Source of the DNA: Neotamlana sargassicola
GTDB taxonomy: Bacteria; Bacteroidota; Bacteroidia; Flavobacteriales; Flavobacteriaceae
Length of the DNA: 64,000 bases
NCBI RefSeq assembly: GCF_020523965.1
Contig: NZ_JAJAPX010000003.1
Coordinates: 124,001-188,000, forward strand
Direction of reading: 5' to 3'
Positions 1,980 to 47,933 of the stretch are shown here, one piece after another. Within the stretch, counting starts at the first letter, position 1; each line of letters begins with the position of its first letter. Made by a program: the position numbers and the translations under genes. Under the pieces are notes generated by a model, which was not told the origin of the DNA, did not search any database, and saw nothing but the letters and a program-made list of their open reading frames with translations.

Positions 1980-2005
1980 TGTGACTCAGTTAACTATACT
2001 GTGTC
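1980..2005 (+). promoter_or_regulatory. Putative ECF sigma promoter, copy 1 (upstream of the sigma gene)
   Basis: TGTGAC (1980-1985), 14 bases, TGTGTC (2000-2005). The same two hexamers with the same spacing occur at 3649 and 7937. Seen as -35 GAC and -10 TGTC, the spacer is 16 bases, as in known ECF promoters. The position directly before the ECF sigma gene suggests autoregulation. Confidence 0.6.
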
Positions 2006-2032
2006 ACAATGTAATTGAACCTTATTTTTGCA

Positions 2033-2605
2033 TTGGAAGAATTAAAGATAGATAAATCCTTAGAAGATGAAAAGCTTGTAGCTTTAATCATTCAATCAAA
2101 AAGTGCCGAATTGTTTTCTGTTATCTACGATAGGTATTCAGAAACTGTTTACCATAAGTGCCTTAGTTTTGTTAAAAACAAAGAAGAAGCTCAAGATTTA
2201 GCCCACGACATTTTTGTGAAGCTTTTTGTTAAGTTAAAAATGTTTAATTTCAAATCTAAATTCTCAACATGGGTTTACTCATTTACCTATAATCATTGTG
2301 TTAATTATGTGCAGCGCGAACAAAAAAAGCGCAGAGATAAATTTTTAATAGCCGATGATTTAGGAAATTACTCTAAAGAGGTTGAAGAAATTGATGAAGA
2401 AGTTATTTTTAGCATGAAAGCCGATAAACTTCAAAAAAGTTTAGAGCTAATAAATCCCAATGATAAAATGATTTTGTTTATGAAATATCAAGACGATTTA
2501 TCTATTGAAGATATTCAAAACGCTTTAGGTATTGGTAAAAGCGCTGTTAAAATGCGCTTAAGTAGAGCCAAAGAACGATTAGTTAAAATTTATAATGACT
2601 TTTGA
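2033..2605 (+). CDS. ECF-type RNA polymerase sigma factor
   Basis: About 190 residues with the two-domain layout of ECF sigma factors. Region 2 covers roughly residues 25-100 and includes EEAQDLAHDIFVKLF and the aromatic FSTWVYSF segment for promoter melting. Region 4, about 130-185, contains the helix-turn-helix DLSIEDIQNALGIGKSAVKM. No ATG fits the N-terminus; TTG at 2033 is the likely start because it leaves about 20 nt after the predicted promoter, while TTG at 2015 would leave almost no leader. The gene is followed after 2 nt by a small acidic protein and then by a CmpX-like channel, an arrangement recalling the Pseudomonas sigX-cmpX cluster. The family is sure; the exact start is not. 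Confidence 0.88.
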   Translation: MEELKIDKSLEDEKLVALIIQSKSAELFSVIYDRYSETVYHKCLSFVKNKEEAQDLAHDIFVKLFVKLKMFNFKSKFSTWVYSFTYNHCVNYVQREQKKRRDKFLIADDLGNYSKEVEEIDEEVIFSMKADKLQKSLELINPNDKMILFMKYQDDLSIEDIQNALGIGKSAVKMRLSRAKERLVKIYNDF

Positions 2606-2607
2606 TT

Positions 2608-2811
2608 ATGGAAAATCCGTTTAAAAAAGTAATACATAATGAAAAGCTACCAGACATTATCAAAGAAAGGGTAATGAATGATATTGATATTGTAAAACTA
2701 GCTTTAGATTTTACAGATTTGATGGTAATTAAATACCCTGATGCTGTTACCGATTTTTTAAAAAATGATGATGAGGATGATTTTAATGAAGATAAAAAAC
2801 AAATTAATTAA
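2608..2811 (+). CDS. Small acidic protein in the sigma operon, function unknown
   Basis: A 67-residue protein starting at ATG 2608, two bases after the sigma stop codon. It has no membrane segment or signal peptide. The N-terminal half is amphipathic and helical-looking (ERVMNDIDIVKLALDFTD), and the C-terminal tail is strongly acidic (NDDEDDFNEDKK). I do not recognise a named family. Its position between an ECF sigma gene and a channel gene is where an anti-sigma or modulator would be expected, and small proteins of unknown role also occur beside sigX/cmpX in pseudomonads, but it lacks the zinc-binding motif of ZAS anti-sigma factors. A regulatory role is only inferred. Confidence 0.75.
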   Translation: MENPFKKVIHNEKLPDIIKERVMNDIDIVKLALDFTDLMVIKYPDAVTDFLKNDDEDDFNEDKKQIN

Positions 2812-2831
2812 ACCCATAATAACCCTTTACA

Positions 2832-3644
2832 ATGAATACAATTAAGCTAGATTTTACACTTCTAGAAACTATAGGTAACAATGTTTACAATGCATTGCCA
2901 AAGTTATTATTAGCCATAGCCTTAATTATTGCAGCATGGTTAATACTTAAAGCGGTTATGTTTGTTGTAAAAAAATCTTTAAAATTTACAAAGATAGATG
3001 TACTATCTGAAAAGTTAAACGAAACGCCTTTATTCGGGTCTAATTTTAATATACAACTAGATAAAGTTATATTAATATTTGTAAAATGGTTTTTAATACT
3101 CATTTTTTTAATAATAGGTTCAGATTTTTTAGGATTAAGTTTTATAAGTAACGAAGTAAGTAAACTAATAAACTTTTTACCAAAAATATTTACAGCATTA
3201 GCCATTTTTGTTTTTGGTATTTATGGAGCTAACTATTTAAAAGAATCTATTCGGTCGTTATTAAAGGCTGTAGATGTTGGAGGTTCTAAAGCCATTAGTC
3301 AAGTGGTTTTTATTCTTGTAGCTTTAATGGTGTCTATATTAGCATTAAATCAAGCAGGTTTAGATACCGAGATTATTACAAAAAATATATTTTTAATATT
3401 AGGTGCTGTACTAGCAGCCTTTACAATAGCTTTTGGTTTAGGTTCTCGCGATATTATTTTACGTTTACTTTTAGGATTTTATTCTAAAAAGAATTTTAAA
3501 GTAGGCCAAAGAGTTTCTATAGACGGAGAAGAAGGCGTTATTATTGCTATTGAGAGTATTAGCATGGTAATTCGTTTCGCCGATAAAAAAGTAGTCTACC
3601 CAATAAAATACATTTCCAATAAAAAAATTGAAATTTTAGAATAA
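2832..3644 (+). CDS. CmpX-like / MscS-related membrane protein
   Basis: A 270-residue inner-membrane protein with about five hydrophobic spans (near residues 15-40, 72-95, 112-130, 150-168 and 180-205). Two conserved-TM-helix type segments are followed by an MscS-like region: the pore-proximal stretch GLGSRDIILRLLLGFY leads into a small beta domain (FKVGQRVSIDGEEGVI). The usual large C-terminal vestibule of MscS is missing, as in CmpX-type proteins. It is the third gene after the ECF sigma factor (20 nt gap) and probably co-transcribed with it. A mechanosensing role is inferred from the family and from the link to an envelope-stress sigma factor. Confidence 0.8.
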   Translation: MNTIKLDFTLLETIGNNVYNALPKLLLAIALIIAAWLILKAVMFVVKKSLKFTKIDVLSEKLNETPLFGSNFNIQLDKVILIFVKWFLILIFLIIGSDFLGLSFISNEVSKLINFLPKIFTALAIFVFGIYGANYLKESIRSLLKAVDVGGSKAISQVVFILVALMVSILALNQAGLDTEIITKNIFLILGAVLAAFTIAFGLGSRDIILRLLLGFYSKKNFKVGQRVSIDGEEGVIIAIESISMVIRFADKKVVYPIKYISNKKIEILE

Positions 3645-3648
3645 AAAT

Positions 3649-3674
3649 TGTGACCTTTTAAAAAGTGCTGTGTC
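3649..3674 (+). promoter_or_regulatory. Putative ECF sigma promoter, copy 2
   Basis: TGTGAC (3649-3654), 14 bases, TGTGTC (3669-3674), identical in both hexamers and spacing to the copies at 1980 and 7937. It lies 5 bp after the CmpX-like gene and 33 bp before the ATG of the 46-residue membrane protein, a normal promoter-to-start distance. Confidence 0.6.
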
Positions 3675-3707
3675 TTATAATAAAGATTCGTTTGAATAAT
3701 TTATAAG

Positions 3708-3848
3708 ATGATAAATAAATTCGCACTTGTTATTATTAGTTTACAAATTGTTTTTATTGTTGTAATGACGGTTCGTTACTATTATTCCAGTAAATTATTG
3801 AAAGAATCGAATAAGCAAAAAATTAAAAACATTAAAAGAGGGAAATAA
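3708..3848 (+). CDS. 46-residue single-span membrane protein
   Basis: A short open frame with ATG start and TAA stop. The product has an N-terminal hydrophobic segment (about residues 5-22, FALVIISLQIVFIVVMTV), a tyrosine-rich border and a lysine/arginine-rich C-terminal tail (about 29-46). This is the shape of a small inner-membrane protein with the basic tail in the cytoplasm. No family is recognised. Support for it being real comes from its own copy of the ECF-type promoter motif 33 bp upstream and the terminator about 105 bp downstream. It may be a stress-induced membrane microprotein of the sigma regulon. Confidence 0.6.
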   Translation: MINKFALVIISLQIVFIVVMTVRYYYSSKLLKESNKQKIKNIKRGK

Positions 3849-3884
3849 TGTTTTTAGCCCCAAATTGCTTATGGTTTTAACTTA

Positions 3885-3947
3885 TGTTGCAATTATATTG
3901 TTATGGTTTGGTTAGAGATGGTTATGGTTAATTTCTTAATTGCAACA
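3885..3947. repeat. Long-range inverted repeat in the 3' region of the small membrane protein gene
   Basis: TGTTGCAATTA (3885-3895) is the perfect reverse complement of TAATTGCAACA (3937-3947), with a 41-nt GT-rich loop between them. It sits in the otherwise empty stretch between the 46-residue protein gene and the terminator. It could be a structured 3' UTR, a small RNA or an operator; nothing decides between these. Confidence 0.35.
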
Positions 3948-3953
3948 ATACAA

Positions 3954-3986
3954 AAAGGCTCAATATTTACATTGAGCCTTTTTTTT
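3954..3986. terminator. Bidirectional terminator between the sigma region and lpdA
   Basis: An 11-bp perfect stem (AAAGGCTCAAT at 3954-3964, ATTGAGCCTTT at 3971-3981) with a 6-nt loop, followed by a T-run on the plus strand and five T on the minus strand. It separates the convergent small protein gene and lpdA. Confidence 0.85.
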
Positions 3987-4005
3987 ATAAAAACATAATT
4001 TTAAT

Positions 4006-5382
4006 TTATATGTGTATACACTCGTCGTAAGCATCAGCTACAGCTTCCATAACCGCTTCACTCATGGTTGGGTGAGGGTGAACAGCTTTTAAAATTTCAT
4101 GTCCAGTAGTTTCTAATTTTCTTGCAACAACGGCTTCAGCAATCATATCTGTTACGGCTGCACCAACCATATGGCAACCTAACCATTCGCCATATTTAGC
4201 ATCAAAAATTACTTTTACAAAACCTTCTTTGTTTCCGCCAGCACTTGCTTTACCAGATGCAGAGAATGGGAATTTTCCAACTTTAATATCTAATCCTTTT
4301 TCTCTTGCCGCTTTTTCTGTTAAACCAACTGATGCAATTTCAGGAGTACAATAAGTACAACCAGGTATATTACCATAGTCTAAAGCTTCAACATGCATTC
4401 CAGCTAATTTTTCAACACAAATAATACCTTCAGCAGAAGCTACGTGAGCTAAAGCAGCGCCAGGTGTAACATCGCCAATAGCAAAATAACCAGGAATATT
4501 AGTTTGGTAAAAATCGTTAACTAAAATTTTATCTCTATCAACTACAATTCCAACATCTTCTAATCCTATGTTTTCAATATTAGTTTTAATACCAACAGCA
4601 CTTAAAATAATATCGGCTTCAAGAATTTCTTCGCCTTTTTTAGTTTTTACGGTAGCTTTTACACCATCTCCAGAAGTATCTACACTTGTTACTTCGGCCG
4701 ATGTCATAATTTTTACACCATTCTTTTTAAACGAACGCTCTACTTGTTTCGATACGTCTTCGTCTTCAACAGGAACAATATTTGGTAAATATTCAACAAT
4801 AGTTACTTCGGTTCCCATAGAGTTGTAGAAATATGCAAACTCTACACCAATAGCACCAGAACCTACAACAATCATTTTCTTAGGTTGTTTTGGTAAACTC
4901 ATAGCTTCGCGGTAACCAATTACTTTTTTACCATCTTGTGGTAAGCTTGGTAATTCTCTAGAACGAGCACCAGTAGCAATAATAATGTTATCGGCACTAT
5001 ATTCAGTTCCATCAACATCTACTTTTTTACCTGGCTTTATTTTACCATAACCATTAATAACGTCTATTTTGTTCTTCTTCATTAAAAACTGAACACCTTT
5101 GCTCATACCATCTGCAACACCACGACTGCGTTTTACAACAGCATCAAAATCATGCGAAGCTTCTTTTACGTTTAAACCGTAATCTTCAGCGTGCTTTAAG
5201 TATTCAAATACTTGAGCAGATTTTAATAAAGCTTTTGTAGGGATACAACCCCAATTTAAACAAACACCTCCAAGATTTTCTTTTTCAATAATAGCGGTTT
5301 TAAAACCTAGTTGAGATGCTCTAATAGCAGTAACGTAACCTCCTGGTCCACTACCAAGAACAATAATATCGTATTTATTCAT
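4006..5382 (-). CDS. lpdA: Dihydrolipoyl dehydrogenase (E3)
   Basis: A 458-residue flavoprotein disulfide reductase that reoxidises dihydrolipoamide in 2-oxoacid dehydrogenase complexes, passing electrons to NAD. It has the N-terminal FAD fold (GSGPGGYVTA, residues 10-19), the redox-active pair C41 and C46 in GGVCLNWGCIPTK, the central NAD-binding motif GSGAIGVEF, and the C-terminal dimerisation domain with the catalytic HPTMSE (H437-E442). The length is usual for E3. It stands alone here, divergent from the NADH dehydrogenase gene, with no E1 or E2 gene nearby. Confidence 0.95.
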   Translation of the reverse strand: MNKYDIIVLGSGPGGYVTAIRASQLGFKTAIIEKENLGGVCLNWGCIPTKALLKSAQVFEYLKHAEDYGLNVKEASHDFDAVVKRSRGVADGMSKGVQFLMKKNKIDVINGYGKIKPGKKVDVDGTEYSADNIIIATGARSRELPSLPQDGKKVIGYREAMSLPKQPKKMIVVGSGAIGVEFAYFYNSMGTEVTIVEYLPNIVPVEDEDVSKQVERSFKKNGVKIMTSAEVTSVDTSGDGVKATVKTKKGEEILEADIILSAVGIKTNIENIGLEDVGIVVDRDKILVNDFYQTNIPGYFAIGDVTPGAALAHVASAEGIICVEKLAGMHVEALDYGNIPGCTYCTPEIASVGLTEKAAREKGLDIKVGKFPFSASGKASAGGNKEGFVKVIFDAKYGEWLGCHMVGAAVTDMIAEAVVARKLETTGHEILKAVHPHPTMSEAVMEAVADAYDECIHI

Positions 5383-5441
5383 TTGTTAAATTTTAGAGTA
5401 CGAATTTACGAAATCGATTTTTAATAATGAATTTAGAAGGC

Positions 5442-5471
5442 TTTAATTTTATATCTTTAATCTTACATTTG
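5442..5471 (+). promoter_or_regulatory. Housekeeping Bacteroidota promoter of the NADH dehydrogenase gene
   Basis: A perfect -7 box of the Bacteroidota type (TAnnTTTG) is present as TACATTTG at 5464-5471, with an imperfect -33 element TTTA at 5442-5445, 18 bases upstream. The start codon follows at 5490. Confidence 0.5.
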
Positions 5472-5489
5472 TATCGAAAGATTTAATTT

Positions 5490-6773
5490 ATGAATATTCC
5501 CAAAACGAGTTTCCCAAGAGTTGTAATTATCGGAGGTGGTTTTGCTGGTGTTGCACTAGCAAAAAAATTAGCAAAACAAGAAGCGCAAGTTGTTTTATTG
5601 GATAAACATAATTACCATACGTTTCAACCACTGTTATATCAAGTTTCAACTGGAGGGTTAGAGCCAGATTCTATTGCATATCCAATACGTAAGGTATTAC
5701 AAAATTTTCCTAACTTTTATTTTAGATTGGCTAATGTTGAAGAAATTGATACCGAAAACGAACGCGTAATAACCAATATAGGAGATTTAGATTTTGATTA
5801 TTTAGTTGTTGCATCTGGATCGGTTACAAACTATTTTGGAAATACTGAAATAGAGAAAAACAGTATGGCTATGAAAACCATACCGCAATCGCTAAATTTA
5901 AGAAGTTTAATTCTGGAAAACTTTGAAGATGCGCTGTTAACTTCAGATTTAAACGAACGCAACGCCTTAATGAATTTTGTTATTGTTGGTGGTGGCCCCA
6001 CCGGGGTAGAGCTAGCCGGTGCATTAGCCGAAATTAAAAAAGGCATTTTACCTAAAGATTACCCAGATTTAGATACGCGAATGGCGCAAATTCATATTAT
6101 TCAATCGGGAGATCGTATTTTAAAAGGAATGAGCGAGAATGCCTCGAAAAAGGCAGAAGATTTTTTAGAGAAACTAGGTGTAAATATCTGGAAAAATGTT
6201 CGTGTAACAAACTATGATGGTGAAACCGTAACCACAAATGGCGAACTGTTGCTAAATGCTAAAACAGTTGTTTGGGCAGCGGGTGTAAAAGGTGAAACTA
6301 TAAAAGGTTTAAATAGTGAAGATTTTATAACCAGAGGAAACCGAATGGTTGTAAATGAATTTAACCAAGTAAAAGGGTTTGATAATATTTTTGCAGTTGG
6401 CGATGTAGCTTGTATGAAAACTGAAGATTTCCCTCATGGATTACCAATGATGGCGCAACCAGCAATACAACAAGGCGAACAATTAGGTGATAACTTAATA
6501 AAACTTGTTGAAAATAAACCTATGAAGCCTTTTGAATACACAGATAAGGGCGCAATGGCAACAATAGGAAGAAATAAAGCGGTTGTAGATTTAAAGAAAT
6601 TTAAATTTCAAGGCGTTTTTGCTTGGTTTGTTTGGATGTTTGTACACTTATTCTTTTTAATTGGTTTTAGAAACCGCATGGTGGTTTTTATAAATTGGGT
6701 TTACAACTATATTCGTTTTGATAGAGAAGCACGACTTATTATACGTCCGTTTAAAAATAGAAACATTGAATAG
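5490..6773 (+). CDS. Type II NADH dehydrogenase (NDH-2)
   Basis: A 427-residue FAD-dependent NADH:quinone oxidoreductase of the single-subunit, non-proton-pumping kind. The first dinucleotide fold is IIGGGFAGVALAKKL (about residues 13-27) for FAD and the second IVGGGPTGVELAGAL (about 165-179) for NADH. The NDH-2 signature YHTFQPLLYQVSTGGL is present near residue 43, and a C-terminal hydrophobic and amphipathic part (about 370-400) would anchor it to the membrane. It would feed electrons into the quinone pool. The gene is convergent with the DinB-like gene with only 3 bp between stops. Confidence 0.92.
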   Translation: MNIPKTSFPRVVIIGGGFAGVALAKKLAKQEAQVVLLDKHNYHTFQPLLYQVSTGGLEPDSIAYPIRKVLQNFPNFYFRLANVEEIDTENERVITNIGDLDFDYLVVASGSVTNYFGNTEIEKNSMAMKTIPQSLNLRSLILENFEDALLTSDLNERNALMNFVIVGGGPTGVELAGALAEIKKGILPKDYPDLDTRMAQIHIIQSGDRILKGMSENASKKAEDFLEKLGVNIWKNVRVTNYDGETVTTNGELLLNAKTVVWAAGVKGETIKGLNSEDFITRGNRMVVNEFNQVKGFDNIFAVGDVACMKTEDFPHGLPMMAQPAIQQGEQLGDNLIKLVENKPMKPFEYTDKGAMATIGRNKAVVDLKKFKFQGVFAWFVWMFVHLFFLIGFRNRMVVFINWVYNYIRFDREARLIIRPFKNRNIE

Positions 6774-6776
6774 TTT

Positions 6777-7328
6777 TTATAAATCGTCGGTAAAATGACG
6801 ATTTTCTTTTTCTTGACTAAACTTTGAAGCATTATATGTTTTTGAATCGCCTTTTGGAATAGATAGAGATTTCCATTCGTAACCCTTTAACAGTTTTCCA
6901 AGAAAAACAATTTGCCCAATATGATAACTGTAATGCGCTAGTTGTCTATTTATAGCTTCAATTACTGTGTGACCACCGTTTCTTATGTAAATTATTTCAT
7001 TTAGATTGGTTTCATTTAAAGAAGAAATGGCTTTAAATAAACAAGACCAGCCACTTTCCCAAGCTGCAACTAAAGCTTTAAAAGATGTAAAGGAATCGAT
7101 AAACTCTTCATCTCTATTACGCCATGCCTTTTCACCATCTTCAGTTAAAAAATTTGTCCAACGGCTTAACATATTACCAGACAAATGTTTAACTATTACG
7201 GCAATGCTATTGGCGTTTTCATGGCTTTGCCATTGCGTATCCTCGAATGTTAATTGTTCAAGGGTTTTATCGCCTAAACTTTTATAATATTCAAATTGTT
7301 TTATAATACTTGTTAGGTAACTTTCCAT
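6777..7328 (-). CDS. DUF1572 / DinB-superfamily protein
   Basis: A 183-residue protein of the DUF1572 family, part of the DinB/YfiT-like four-helix-bundle superfamily of metal-binding proteins. Typical parts are the N-terminal helix ending near GDKTLEQL, the segment SIAVIVKHLSGNMLSRW with a potential metal-ligand histidine (about residue 48), and INRQLAHYSYHIGQIVFLGK with two further histidines (about 132 and 136), which would complete a three-His site. Related proteins include thiol S-transferases such as BstA that use bacillithiol; this genome has bshA (41466), so such a role is possible but only inferred. Confidence 0.82.
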   Translation of the reverse strand: MESYLTSIIKQFEYYKSLGDKTLEQLTFEDTQWQSHENANSIAVIVKHLSGNMLSRWTNFLTEDGEKAWRNRDEEFIDSFTSFKALVAAWESGWSCLFKAISSLNETNLNEIIYIRNGGHTVIEAINRQLAHYSYHIGQIVFLGKLLKGYEWKSLSIPKGDSKTYNASKFSQEKENRHFTDDL

Positions 7329-7379
7329 ATCATATATTTTTATATAATATTGAAAATTAACAAGTAAAACGTTATAAAG

Positions 7380-7856
7380 CTATTCTTTTGGTATAAATTT
7401 TAAGGCAGCACCATTTATACAATGACGTTTTCCTGTGGTATCTCGGGGGCCATCATTAAAAACATGACCTAAATGCCCGCCACAAACCGCACAGTGTTCT
7501 TCAGTTCTAGCATAACCAATTTTATAATCTGTAGAAAAAGCTACATTACCTTTAATTTCTCTATCAAAACTAGGCCAACCAGTACCAGAATTAAACTTGT
7601 GTTGGCTTTCAAATAAAGGCGTATTACAACCTTTGCAAACATAGGTGCCTTCTTCTTTATTTTTGTTTAACTCGCTACTAAAAGCGCGCTCCGTTCCAGC
7701 TTGTCTTAATACATAAAATTCCATGTCTGTTAACTGAGCTTTCCATTCAGCTTCTGTTTTAGTAACCTTAAAAGTTTCTTTAGAGTTTTTGTTTTGCGAT
7801 TCGCCTTTACAGTTAAATATTAGCAAGGTTGAAAAAATGAATAATATCTTTTTCAT
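7380..7856 (-). CDS. msrB: Peptide-methionine (R)-S-oxide reductase, lipoprotein form
   Basis: A 158-residue MsrB that reduces methionine-R-sulfoxide in proteins. A lipoprotein signal peptide ends with the lipobox LIFNC (Cys16), so the enzyme should sit in the periplasm on a membrane anchor. The zinc-binding cysteines are C74 and C77 (CKGC) and C122 and C125 (CAVC), and the catalytic cysteine is C146 in RHCINGAALKF. The signature GTGWPSF is intact. An exported form fits repair of oxidised envelope proteins. It is divergent from the M48 peptidase gene and probably follows its own promoter; the DinB-like gene lies 51 bp downstream on the same strand. Confidence 0.94.
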   Translation of the reverse strand: MKKILFIFSTLLIFNCKGESQNKNSKETFKVTKTEAEWKAQLTDMEFYVLRQAGTERAFSSELNKNKEEGTYVCKGCNTPLFESQHKFNSGTGWPSFDREIKGNVAFSTDYKIGYARTEEHCAVCGGHLGHVFNDGPRDTTGKRHCINGAALKFIPKE

Positions 7857-7936
7857 GTAAATTATTTTTTAAGTTAAGTCGTATATATGTTTACAAAATA
7901 ACAGCTTAAACTAATAATTTTATGTTTAATTTAAGT

Positions 7937-7962
7937 TGTGACTAATTAAGTTAAATTGTGTC
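7937..7962 (+). promoter_or_regulatory. Putative ECF sigma promoter, copy 3 (M48 peptidase)
   Basis: TGTGAC (7937-7942), 14 bases, TGTGTC (7957-7962), the third copy of the bipartite motif. It points toward the M48 peptidase gene, whose ATG is 53 bp downstream, and lies in the divergent region shared with msrB. Confidence 0.6.
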
Positions 7963-8015
7963 ATAAAATACGACATTGATTTACTATTTTTATAATCTAT
8001 TAAAACCATATAATA

Positions 8016-10674: not shown

Positions 10675-13224
10675 TTATGATTCTGTAGATTTTTTAGCTT
10701 TATCAATAGAAATGACTAATTCGTCCTTGTTTTCATCAAAATCTAATTTTATGCCATCGCCTTCCTGTAAATTAGAGGCAACAATTTCTTCAGCTAAAGT
10801 ATCTTCAACATACTTTTGTATAGCTCTTTTTAAAGGTCTTGCTCCGTATTGTTTATCAAAACCTTTATCGGCTATGAAATCTTTGGCAGCATCGGTTAAT
10901 GTTAAATTATAACCTAAGCCATTAATTCTGCTTAATAGTTTCTTTAACTCAATATCAATAATTTTACTTATGTCTTCTTTTTCTAAAGCATTAAATACAA
11001 TTACGTCATCAATTCTGTTCAAGAACTCTGGAGCAAACGATTTTTTTAACGAATTTTCTATAACACCTCTTGCATTTTCGGCTTCTTGCGCTTTTTGTGA
11101 TGCTGTACCAAAACCAATACCTGTACCAAAGTCTTTTAATTTTCTAGCACCAATATTCGAGGTCATTATTATTATAGTGTTTCTAAAATCAATTTTTCTA
11201 CCTAAGCTATCCGTTAAATAGCCATCATCTAAAACTTGAAGCAACATATTAAATACATCTGGATGTGCTTTTTCAATTTCATCTAAAAGCACAACAGCGT
11301 AAGGTTTTCTGCGTACTTTTTCTGTTAATTGTCCACCTTCTTCGTAACCAACGTATCCTGGAGGAGCACCCACTAATCTGGAAATTGCAAATTTTTCCAT
11401 GTATTCACTCATATCTATTCTAACAAGAGAATCTTCACTATCAAATAATTCACGTGATAGTATTTTGGCTAATTGGGTTTTACCAACACCTGTTTGCCCT
11501 AAGAATATGAAAGAGCCAATAGGCTTGTTAGGGTCTTTTAACCCTGCGCGGTTACGCTGTATGGCTTTAACCACTTTAGCAACAGCATCATCTTGACCAA
11601 TTACTTTGCCTTTTATAAGATTTGGTAATTCGGCAAGTTTGTTAATTTCGGTTTGTGCAATACGGTTAACAGGTACGCCCGTCATCATTGAAATAACATC
11701 AGCTACATTATCTTCGGTTACAATTTCACGATGTTGTTTCGTGTCTTCTTCCCATTTTTCTTGAGCTATAGATAATTCTTTTTCTAAACGTTTTTCATCA
11801 TCTCTTAAACGCGCAGCTTCTTCATATTTTTGTTTACGAACGACGGCGTTTTTAAGTTCTTTTATATCTTCAAGCTGCTTTTCTAACTCAATAATTTGTT
11901 TAGGAACATCAATGTTAGTTATGTGAACACGAGATCCTGCTTCATCTAAGGCATCAATAGCTTTGTCTGGTAAAAATCGCTCAGACATATATCTATTAGT
12001 TAATTTTACACAGGCTTCAATGGCTTCTGGTGTGTAATCAACGTTATGGTGTTCTTCGTATTTACCTTTAATGTTGTTTAATATTTCAATAGTTTCTTCA
12101 ACACTTGTAGGCTCTACAATTACTTTTTGAAAACGACGCTCTAAAGCACCATCTTTTTCTATGTATTGTCTGTATTCATCAAGTGTAGTAGCTCCAATAC
12201 ATTGAATTTCACCTCTTGCTAATGCAGGTTTAAACATATTTGAAGCATCTAAACTTCCCGTAGCTCCACCGGCGCCAACAATAGTATGAATTTCATCGAT
12301 AAATAAAATAACGTCGTCATTTTTTTCAAGTTCGTTCATTACGGCTTTCATGCGTTCTTCAAACTGTCCACGATATTTAGTACCAGCAACTAAACTTGCT
12401 AAATCTAGAGTAACAACGCGTTTGTTAAATAAAATGCGCGATACTTTTCGTTTTACAATTCTAAGCGCTAAGCCTTCGGCAATGGCAGATTTACCAACAC
12501 CAGGTTCACCAATTAATAACGGATTGTTTTTCTTTCGTCTACTTAAAACCTGAGATACGCGTTCAATTTCTTTTTCTCGACCAACAACAGGATCTAATTT
12601 ACCATCTTCGGCTAAAGCTGTTAAATCGCGGCCAAAGTTATCTAAAACAGGGGTTTTAGATTTTTTATTAGACTTGTTTGATGGGGTATTAAATACATCT
12701 TTAGAACCATCGTCGCCAGAAGCCGTATCATCGTCTTGAAAAGACTCTGATTTAGGTTCTATATAATTGTTGTCATTATTTGTAATCATAAATTTAAATT
12801 GTTCTTTAACATTGTCGTAGTCAACTTTTAACTTATTTAAAAGTTTGGTAGTTGGGTCGTTTTCGTTTCGTAAAATACAAAGTAGCAAGTGTGCGGTATT
12901 AATAGAAGTACTCTGGAAAAGCTTAGCCTCTAGAAATGTTGTTTTTAAAGCACGTTCTGCTTGTCTTGTTAAATGTAAATTCTTTTTTTGGTTTGAAGCA
13001 ACAGAAATACTTGGGTTTGCCGGACTTAAAATTTCAACTTTACGTCTTAAATGATTTAAATCAATATCTAGGGCATTTAAAATATTTATTGCTTTACCAT
13101 TGCCATCGCGAAGTAAACCAAGCATTAAATGTTCGGTACCTATAAAATCGTGTCCCAAACGCAAAGCTTCTTCTTTACTAAATGCGATTACATCCTTTAC
13201 TCTTGGTGAAAAATTATCATCCAT
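10675..13224 (-). CDS. clpC: ATP-dependent Clp unfoldase ClpC
   Basis: A 849-residue HSP100 unfoldase that feeds proteins to ClpP. An N-terminal Clp repeat domain (about residues 5-140, starting FSPRVKDVIAFSKEEALRLG) precedes the first AAA+ module (Walker A GEPGVGKS, Walker B VILFIDEIHT), a UVR-type coiled coil (KQKYEEAARLRDDEKRLEKE) and the second AAA+ module (GQTGVGKT, VVLLDEIEKAH). A GIGFG segment in the second module could be the ClpP-binding loop. The start is placed at ATG 13224, where AAAGGA lies about nine bases upstream, rather than at an in-frame ATG 17 codons earlier. It is divergent from gyrA. Confidence 0.95.
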   Translation of the reverse strand: MDDNFSPRVKDVIAFSKEEALRLGHDFIGTEHLMLGLLRDGNGKAINILNALDIDLNHLRRKVEILSPANPSISVASNQKKNLHLTRQAERALKTTFLEAKLFQSTSINTAHLLLCILRNENDPTTKLLNKLKVDYDNVKEQFKFMITNNDNNYIEPKSESFQDDDTASGDDGSKDVFNTPSNKSNKKSKTPVLDNFGRDLTALAEDGKLDPVVGREKEIERVSQVLSRRKKNNPLLIGEPGVGKSAIAEGLALRIVKRKVSRILFNKRVVTLDLASLVAGTKYRGQFEERMKAVMNELEKNDDVILFIDEIHTIVGAGGATGSLDASNMFKPALARGEIQCIGATTLDEYRQYIEKDGALERRFQKVIVEPTSVEETIEILNNIKGKYEEHHNVDYTPEAIEACVKLTNRYMSERFLPDKAIDALDEAGSRVHITNIDVPKQIIELEKQLEDIKELKNAVVRKQKYEEAARLRDDEKRLEKELSIAQEKWEEDTKQHREIVTEDNVADVISMMTGVPVNRIAQTEINKLAELPNLIKGKVIGQDDAVAKVVKAIQRNRAGLKDPNKPIGSFIFLGQTGVGKTQLAKILSRELFDSEDSLVRIDMSEYMEKFAISRLVGAPPGYVGYEEGGQLTEKVRRKPYAVVLLDEIEKAHPDVFNMLLQVLDDGYLTDSLGRKIDFRNTIIIMTSNIGARKLKDFGTGIGFGTASQKAQEAENARGVIENSLKKSFAPEFLNRIDDVIVFNALEKEDISKIIDIELKKLLSRINGLGYNLTLTDAAKDFIADKGFDKQYGARPLKRAIQKYVEDTLAEEIVASNLQEGDGIKLDFDENKDELVISIDKAKKSTES

Positions 13225-47834: not shown

Positions 47835-47933
47835 TTGGCGAATATACAGAATTCTCATTTTAACATAATGTTAAGAGGAATAACAGTAACATATTGGTAC
47901 TTTGCACGTCACATAAAAATAAACTCTAAATAA

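Follow-up and report, generated by a model that had tools for sequence, protein, structure and literature searches.

ECF (extracytoplasmic function) sigma factors of the Bacillus SigW/SigX type use promoters of the form TGAAAC-N16-CGTC/CGTA. In Escherichia coli, the envelope-stress ECF sigma factor is sigma-E, with its small RNAs RybB and MicA. Nearer to the organism studied here, in Flavobacterium psychrophilum of the same family, a class of ECF-type promoters named SM6 has been described from 5′-end sequencing (Guerin et al. 2021, PMC9723704), and the class includes the promoter of Rfp11, a candidate regulatory RNA. The most similar gene arrangement is SigX-CfrX-CmpX of Pseudomonas aeruginosa, for which a mechanosensing complex has been proposed (PMC8999054) and in which CfrX is one of the main suspected regulators (PMC7641640). 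Here we analyze 64,000 nucleotides of Neotamlana sargassicola (contig NZ_JAJAPX010000003.1, positions 124,001 to 188,000; hereafter the window), in which a paired motif, TGTGAC-N14-TGTGTC, stands before an ECF sigma gene and two other genes. Judged from sequence comparisons, these motifs are very probably the promoters of an autoregulated ECF sigma envelope-stress regulon.

A search of the window recovered three exact copies of the motif, all on the plus strand, at 1980-2005, 3649-3674 and 7937-7962, just where the original prediction had placed them. None was found in 100 dinucleotide-preserving shuffles of the window. No other copies had been noticed by eye in the window, and for the exact form there is indeed no fourth. 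Looser searching added one match with one mismatch, on the minus strand and overlapping site 1, and one with two mismatches at 47888. All three copies precede start codons, although the distance had been put at 28-53 bp and the lower figure was slightly off; the gaps are 27, 33 and 53 bases. As claimed, copies 2 and 3 precede genes for a 46-residue protein and an M48 lipoprotein-like peptidase. The promoters and genes concerned are as follows.

1980..2008, plus strand: predicted sigma-dependent promoter 1, with GTGAC as −35, N15, and GTGTC-ACA as −10; ahead of the sigma operon (autoregulation)
2033..2605, plus strand: ECF sigma factor, 190 amino acids, TTG start; Pfam Sigma70_r2 and r4_2; start taken from orthologues
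2608..2811, plus strand: 67-amino-acid soluble acidic protein (MENPFKK... family), candidate sigma regulator; no Pfam or NCBIfam match
2832..3644, plus strand: 270-amino-acid MscS-like membrane protein, PF05552
3649..3677, plus strand: predicted sigma-dependent promoter 2, 4 bases past the mscS stop codon; also in Tamlana loci L017-L019
3708..3848, plus strand: 46-amino-acid small protein with one hydrophobic stretch and a basic tail; open reading frame (ORF)
7937..7965, plus strand: predicted sigma-dependent promoter 3; also in Tamlana loci L017-L019
8016..8849, plus strand: M48 metallopeptidase with a lipoprotein-like start, PF01435 (5.6e-33)

In the explanation that we favor, the ECF sigma factor encoded at 2033-2605 would recognize the three motifs as its −35/−10 promoters, which have the form GTGAC-N15-GTGTC-WNA. 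This factor would direct RNA polymerase to its own operon, which comprises the sigma gene, the gene for the 67-residue protein and that for the MscS-like channel. It would also serve the genes for the 46-residue membrane protein and the M48 lipoprotein protease in the window. Its other predicted targets in the genome are additional envelope and stress genes and, with less certainty, a small RNA. We infer that the sigma factor binds the motif and that the transcription start lies some 34 bases past the first G. The 67-residue protein would keep the sigma factor inactive, and the channel would couple release of the sigma factor to osmotic change or to tension in the membrane, following the model put forward for SigX-CfrX-CmpX. 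What we observe directly is the motif with its spacing and orientation, its position before genes, its conservation, and its tight co-occurrence with the sigma gene.

The genome that holds the window (3.61 Mb in 41 contigs) has close relatives in three named Tamlana species, with sigma orthologues at 93-99% identity. It contains four exact copies of the motif, three of them in the window, and 12 with one mismatch, a total of 16 versus 6 for the reversed control. One of the 16 is the reverse reading of site 1, leaving 15 distinct sites. When their contexts were read by eye, 10 of these lay 27-91 bp before a same-strand ORF. The other five comprise one site before an ORF-less stretch (a candidate RNA), one several hundred bases before a paralogous sigma gene, and three inside ORFs.

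Short AT-rich patterns might simply happen to fall near genes, and matches of the hexamer pair with up to two mismatches are indeed no commoner genome-wide than those of the reversed control (69 versus 85). However, the exact and one-mismatch copies exceed their controls, and the conservation and co-occurrence across genomes described below lie far beyond chance. Coincidence is refuted for the exact form, and we assign it a negligible probability. Because there is no excess at two mismatches, the signal resides only in the tight form. We dropped the two-mismatch hexamer pattern for this reason and replaced it with the refined motif GTGAC-N15-GTGTC-WNA; the sigma loci mostly read NGTGAC-N14-NGTGTC followed by WNA.

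We surveyed 199 Flavobacteriaceae genomes from 198 genera and called the sigma gene at E <= 1e-30, which placed it in 75 of them. The refined motif is present in 73 of the 75 sigma-bearing genomes (367 matches), compared to 8 of the 124 others (8 matches). This co-occurrence has a Fisher p of 2e-42, uncorrected for phylogeny. The reversed motif gave 8 matches in sigma-bearing genomes and 17 in the others. The association is also specific to the spacer: N14 and N16 yielded 49 matches each in sigma-bearing genomes, against 367 for N15, and the corresponding counts in genomes without the sigma gene were 19 and 17, against 8. The N14 and N16 spacers are rare overall, yet they are used before some sigma genes.

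The same promoter could in principle be used mainly by a paralogous sigma factor, or be shared by several ECF sigma factors, and sharing would be compatible with the explanation given above. A paralogue is encoded at G000:C32:66825-67355 (L216). It is 50% identical to the window sigma factor, may share its promoters, and scores slightly higher on the NCBIfam SigX model (103 versus 93 bits). A one-mismatch motif lies about 480 bp upstream of it (C32:66342; L012, L151), and the text of Guerin et al. voices a suspicion of overlapping ECF regulons in F. psychrophilum (PMC9723704). Set against this, a single match at E <= 1e-30 is present in 65 of the 75 sigma-bearing genomes, the motif is missing from no more than two of the 75, and it is located at the sigma operon itself. 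We consider a promoter that mainly serves the paralogue, or several sigma factors, to be unlikely. In genome G173, the match corresponding to the paralogue carries one stop codon.

The motif is also retained before orthologous sigma genes. Allowing up to two mismatches, 22 of the 25 named loci have the hexamer pair with N14 upstream of this gene. In 30 family loci, which are the best 30 sigma matches among the 75 genomes, the upstream motif has the N15 spacer and at most one mismatch in 25 and an N14 or N16 spacer without mismatch in 4, bringing the total to 29 of 30. Three of five further family loci, obtained in a search of the phylum, carry it as well (L228, L231 and L232).

Nine orthologous loci from other families of the class and phylum (L230, L233, L234 and L236-L241) served as an outgroup. 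Their best promoter candidates read GTGAC, GTAAC or GTTAC, followed in seven of the nine by CGTC as the second box. An ECF −10 element is expected to read CGTC. These candidates bear on a different explanation, in which a dimeric transcription factor binds the motif as a direct-repeat operator, with nearby sigma-A promoters driving transcription. The two hexamers, TGTGAC and TGTGTC, differ at only one base and lie 20 bp apart, two helical turns, a distance that suits a dimer on one face of the DNA; site 1 even reads nearly as an inverted repeat (TGTGAC...GTCACA). In seven of the nine outgroup loci, however, the CGTC box of the best candidate means that the repeat is lost while the position is kept, which speaks against an operator of this kind.

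To describe the motif, we built a logo from 87 unique sites located at most 130 bp from an ORF, in which GTGAC, GTGTC and WNA are fixed by selection. Among the free positions, T precedes the first box (0.66), TT occupies positions 8-9 (0.74 and 0.72), A follows WNA (0.70), and the spacer is AT-rich. G is in excess at position 34 (0.32, binomial p ~1e-8 versus 0.10, for one position picked from many), a hint of the transcription start; read onto promoter 1, the logo would put its start near 2015. A housekeeping box, TAnnTTTG, is not clearly enriched downstream, appearing at 7 of the 87 sites versus 3.9 ± 1.8 in shuffles. Given the outgroup promoters, the lack of a clear housekeeping box, and a motif whose presence tracks the ECF sigma gene, we reject the direct-repeat operator as highly improbable.

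The placement of the motif was examined in 120 stretches fetched around listed matches, together with further motif loci. Between them they hold 174 unique sites in 38 genomes, fewer than the full set of matches. A site was called promoter-like, automatically, if a same-strand ORF started at most 150 bp downstream; this rule overlooks at least two targets recognized by eye, a dodecin gene (L161) and a sigma gene (L279), and admits a few doubtful short ORFs. In sigma-bearing genomes, 140 of 171 fetched sites are promoter-like, with a median of 43.5 bp to the start codon. The other 31 consist of 25 intergenic sites without a near ORF and 6 inside ORFs, so the matches are concentrated before genes rather than in coding regions. 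None of the three sites fetched from genomes without the sigma gene is promoter-like. At L157, L169 and L203, from three genomes, the match falls inside the same conserved coding sequence; these were counted as inside an ORF and are probably a coding coincidence.

Counted over the fetched sites, which do not amount to complete regulons, the sigma gene itself is a target in 19 of the 38 genomes. M48 peptidases are the commonest type after it, with 15 sites in 13 genomes. Next are an OmpA-family protein (365 amino acids, PF00691) and DUF2853 proteins, in 12 genomes each, LysM proteins in 10, and a 140-residue protein without a Pfam match in 7. Less frequent targets are aquaporin (MIP; 5 genomes), DUF3078 (4), MscS (3), dodecin (3), and the 46-residue protein, found in 4 genomes of this genus only. 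By family, several of these targets act in the envelope or in water or ion flow. In two genomes, the target is a sigma-70 factor with regions 1.2 to 4 (L269 in G036 and L304 in G115), which looks like the primary sigma factor RpoD. The ECF promoter shape and the autoregulation proposed earlier are thus supported by conservation before orthologous sigma genes, by gene-proximal placement, and by co-occurrence with the sigma gene.

Several observations weigh against the motif being the promoter of this sigma factor, in addition to the missing excess at two mismatches and the close paralogue noted above. Two genomes, G018 and G070, possess the sigma gene and lack the exact refined motif. The hexamer pair with N14 has no match before the sigma gene in L027, L031 and L034, and the motif is absent upstream in L079 (G019), although that genome has nine matches, and in two of the five further family loci, L229 (G001) and L235 (G346). 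Among the outgroup loci, L236 has no promoter candidate and L238 reads ATGTC; the outgroup candidates differ from the family motif by 2-3 mismatches, and single ones may be chance. Finally, site 1 is followed at 2023-2030 by TATTTTTG, which could be a housekeeping −7 box.

In the sigma operon, the sigma protein also matches Sigma70_ECF and r4 in Pfam, with no region 3 or 1.2. Its most likely start is the TTG at 2033, the TTG at 2015 being only the first mechanical start, because in L018, from a sister species, the two TTGs are separated by a stop codon, and the equivalent of TTG 2033 recurs in orthologues. The TTG start is kept across genera (L018, L020-L040, and all 12 sigma sites in another set), and such a long-kept weak start may hold basal translation of the sigma factor low. 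The 67-residue protein is mostly helical in a structure model of moderate confidence (mean pLDDT 73.4, pTM 0.37). Residues 104-256 of the MscS-like protein align with residues 17-164 of MscS chains (e.g. 6rld), and it seems to be without the C-terminal cytoplasmic part of MscS.

The order of sigma, small protein (57-76 amino acids) and MscS-like gene recurs in 24 of the 25 named loci, with L022 ending too early, and across loci the small protein measures 56-76 amino acids. In the 30 family loci, the MscS-like gene is present in all and the small protein in 29; in the nine outgroup loci, they are present in nine and six, respectively. Neither was found within the fetched flanks of fifteen weaker homologues (L242-L256). 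A plasmid search with the MscS-like protein returned four weak channel matches; two regions were opened, and a sigma gene was absent from both by tblastn. Downstream of the operon, counterparts of the 46-residue protein (46-55 amino acids) occupy the same place in L017, L018, L019 and L040.

Some matches precede no gene at all, and the circuit may also make small regulatory RNAs. The candidates considered are listed here.

G000:C10:622867-622960 (L120): predicted GCTATTW short RNA, no ORF; relatives at L094, L109, L129, L134, L159, L180, L212, L257 and L306
About 11640-11930 in most loci: GGGG-loop hairpin RNA, 2-3 copies after mscS, in L021, L023-L027, L029-L032, L034, L035 and L042
3886..3946, plus strand: conserved stem-loop, candidate RNA element (GTTGCAATTA...TAATTGCAAC), past the 46-amino-acid ORF in the 3′ part of the transcript from promoter 2
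3957..3986, plus strand: predicted intrinsic terminator (GGCTCAAT..ATTGAGCC + T8), from sequence; conserved between Tamlana species

Ten of the 25 intergenic ORF-less sites share an RNA-like sequence, with GCTATTW 5-11 bases past the motif, a hairpin and a T run. The 5′ end is conserved and the terminator hairpin varies in sequence. The same kinase-like gene flanks seven of the ten sites, five of which are bordered on their other side by an RNase H-like gene (names assigned by eye). Compared to shuffles, eight of the ten fold with z scores of −2.2 to −5.3 and L134 with −1.2; the source genome's own copy folds no better than its shuffles (z +0.28). Across the 199 genomes, the promoter followed by GCTATTW occurs at 13 sites in 12 genomes, all twelve sigma-bearing, and the reversed control gave none. 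One of the 13 sites (G163 C7, L171) precedes a lipoprotein-like gene instead. Three others (L324-L326) lie in a third neighborhood, where one hairpin folded (−15.2) and two stretches were cut too early. We rejected a leader peptide starting at ATG-CTATT, as four of the ten copies have no ATG (L094, L109, L129 and L212). Relatives thus display a promoter, a conserved short 5′ region, a terminator hairpin and no ORF, the signature of a sigma-dependent small RNA. A candidate RNA driven by an ECF promoter has a precedent, since Rfp11 lies under SM6 in F. psychrophilum (PMC9723704).

A second predicted RNA follows the promoter that lies after mscS in Tenacibaculum-type loci; it consists of a stem capped by a GGGG loop, plus a terminator. 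We aligned 9 of 13 copies, choosing those of equal length or whose loop stretch has five G's and leaving out L025, L030, L039 and L035 (shifted 5′ arm). In this alignment, 92.6% of cells pair and 3 pairs change on both sides. The covariation score exceeds those of all 500 shuffles, with the structure derived from the same, related copies, and the result leans towards a genuine RNA structure. The promoter motif is present at 14 of 31 copies checked, which are 30 of 35 matches (L020, L022, L036 −, L037 − and the window, at E 0.046 to 0.73, were dropped) plus one other copy. The 17 copies without it are mostly the first after mscS and may ride on the operon transcript. An RNA model of this hairpin, R1, matched only 1 of the 199 family genomes at E <= 0.01; the RNA looks genus-bound, or lost to stricter filters. 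Within the window, the stem-loop at 3886-3946 is strongly conserved in L017-L019, and similar arms with changes are visible by eye in L040. The lowest-energy fold of the window segment fails to show the stem in its entirety.

At E <= 1, Rfam had no match to the RNA sites of nine GCTATTW loci (the ten less L134). At gathering level, it had none at the RNA sites of L021, L027, L030 and L035, nor in the window. Outside the sigma operon, the Tenacibaculum ovolyticum locus L027 contains the Rfam Flavo-1 RNA (RF01705) at 7871-7942.

These features can be joined into a wider picture, which goes beyond the original prediction in its channel module and RNA arm and which we put forward tentatively. Bacteroidota might possess a mechanosensing ECF module, with the sigma factor locked by a protein of about 65 residues and freed via a truncated MscS-like channel. 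It would control envelope proteases, OmpA, LysM proteins, and water and ion channels, with an arm of short terminator-ended RNAs (the GCUAUUW-5′ RNAs, the GGGG-loop RNAs and the 3886-3946 hairpin). If true, flavobacteria would have their own equivalent of sigma-E with RybB/MicA, connected to a channel. The sharply defined stress promoter would be readable from sequence wherever the sigma gene occurs, 75 of 199 genomes, and would yield a predicted regulon for each, in a family that Guerin et al. term understudied (PMC9723704). If the RNA arm is real, small-RNA-driving envelope-stress sigma factors would extend to Bacteroidota, where the precedent we met is the Rfp11 promoter (PMC9723704).

How does this system compare with those already described? 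Autoregulated ECF promoters are known as a kind. None of the literature listings that we searched describes this motif, operon or regulon; the bare motif, with its group, may be on record in the 2021 reclassification of ECF sigma factors by Casas-Pastor et al. Like the Bacillus SigW/SigX promoters, ours have a −35 ending in AC, a 16-base spacer to a four-base −10, and T-rich spacer sequence. They differ in reading TGTGAC and TGTC, and the best candidates outside Flavobacteriaceae mostly have CGTC. The E. coli sigma-E regulon likewise places protease and outer membrane protein genes and short RNAs under envelope-stress ECF promoters, the RNAs here being predicted from sequence alone. The SM6 promoters differ in having a CGT box at −10, type IX secretion system (T9SS) and flotillin targets, and a sigma gene beside an anti-sigma gene (PMC9723704). 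The text of that paper, logos and supplements aside, presents no GTGAC-N15-GTGTC class.

The closest parallel is SigX-CfrX-CmpX (ECF102). In both systems, an ECF sigma gene lies beside genes for a small soluble protein and an MscS homologue, and an OmpA-family gene is a target (OprF in Pseudomonas). Of 10 proteins scanned, 8 (including the paralogue L216, but not L230 or L236) have the NCBIfam SigX model, NF007222, as their best specific model; we take this model to represent Pseudomonas SigX because B. subtilis fails it in a control. All 10 proteins also fail its cut-off of 194, with 81-116 bits, and no CfrX model was among the NCBIfam matches. The genes here form one sigma-led operon, whereas Pseudomonas, a different phylum, has a separate cfrX-cmpX unit upstream. 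The small protein is 56-76 amino acids here, compared to 84 in CfrX (PMC7641640), and the SigX promoter consensus, not precisely defined according to the text of the same paper, contrasts with the sharp one in the flavobacterial system. Overexpressing cmpX left sigX and cfrX expression unchanged in Pseudomonas, as the text of PMC10965496 has it, which weakens the step in which the channel acts as sensor. The system thus resembles the SigX module, but we do not count it as a member. It would nevertheless be a second, distant case of an ECF sigma factor tied to an MscS-type channel, an association for which a 2022 review gives a single studied case (PMC8999054).

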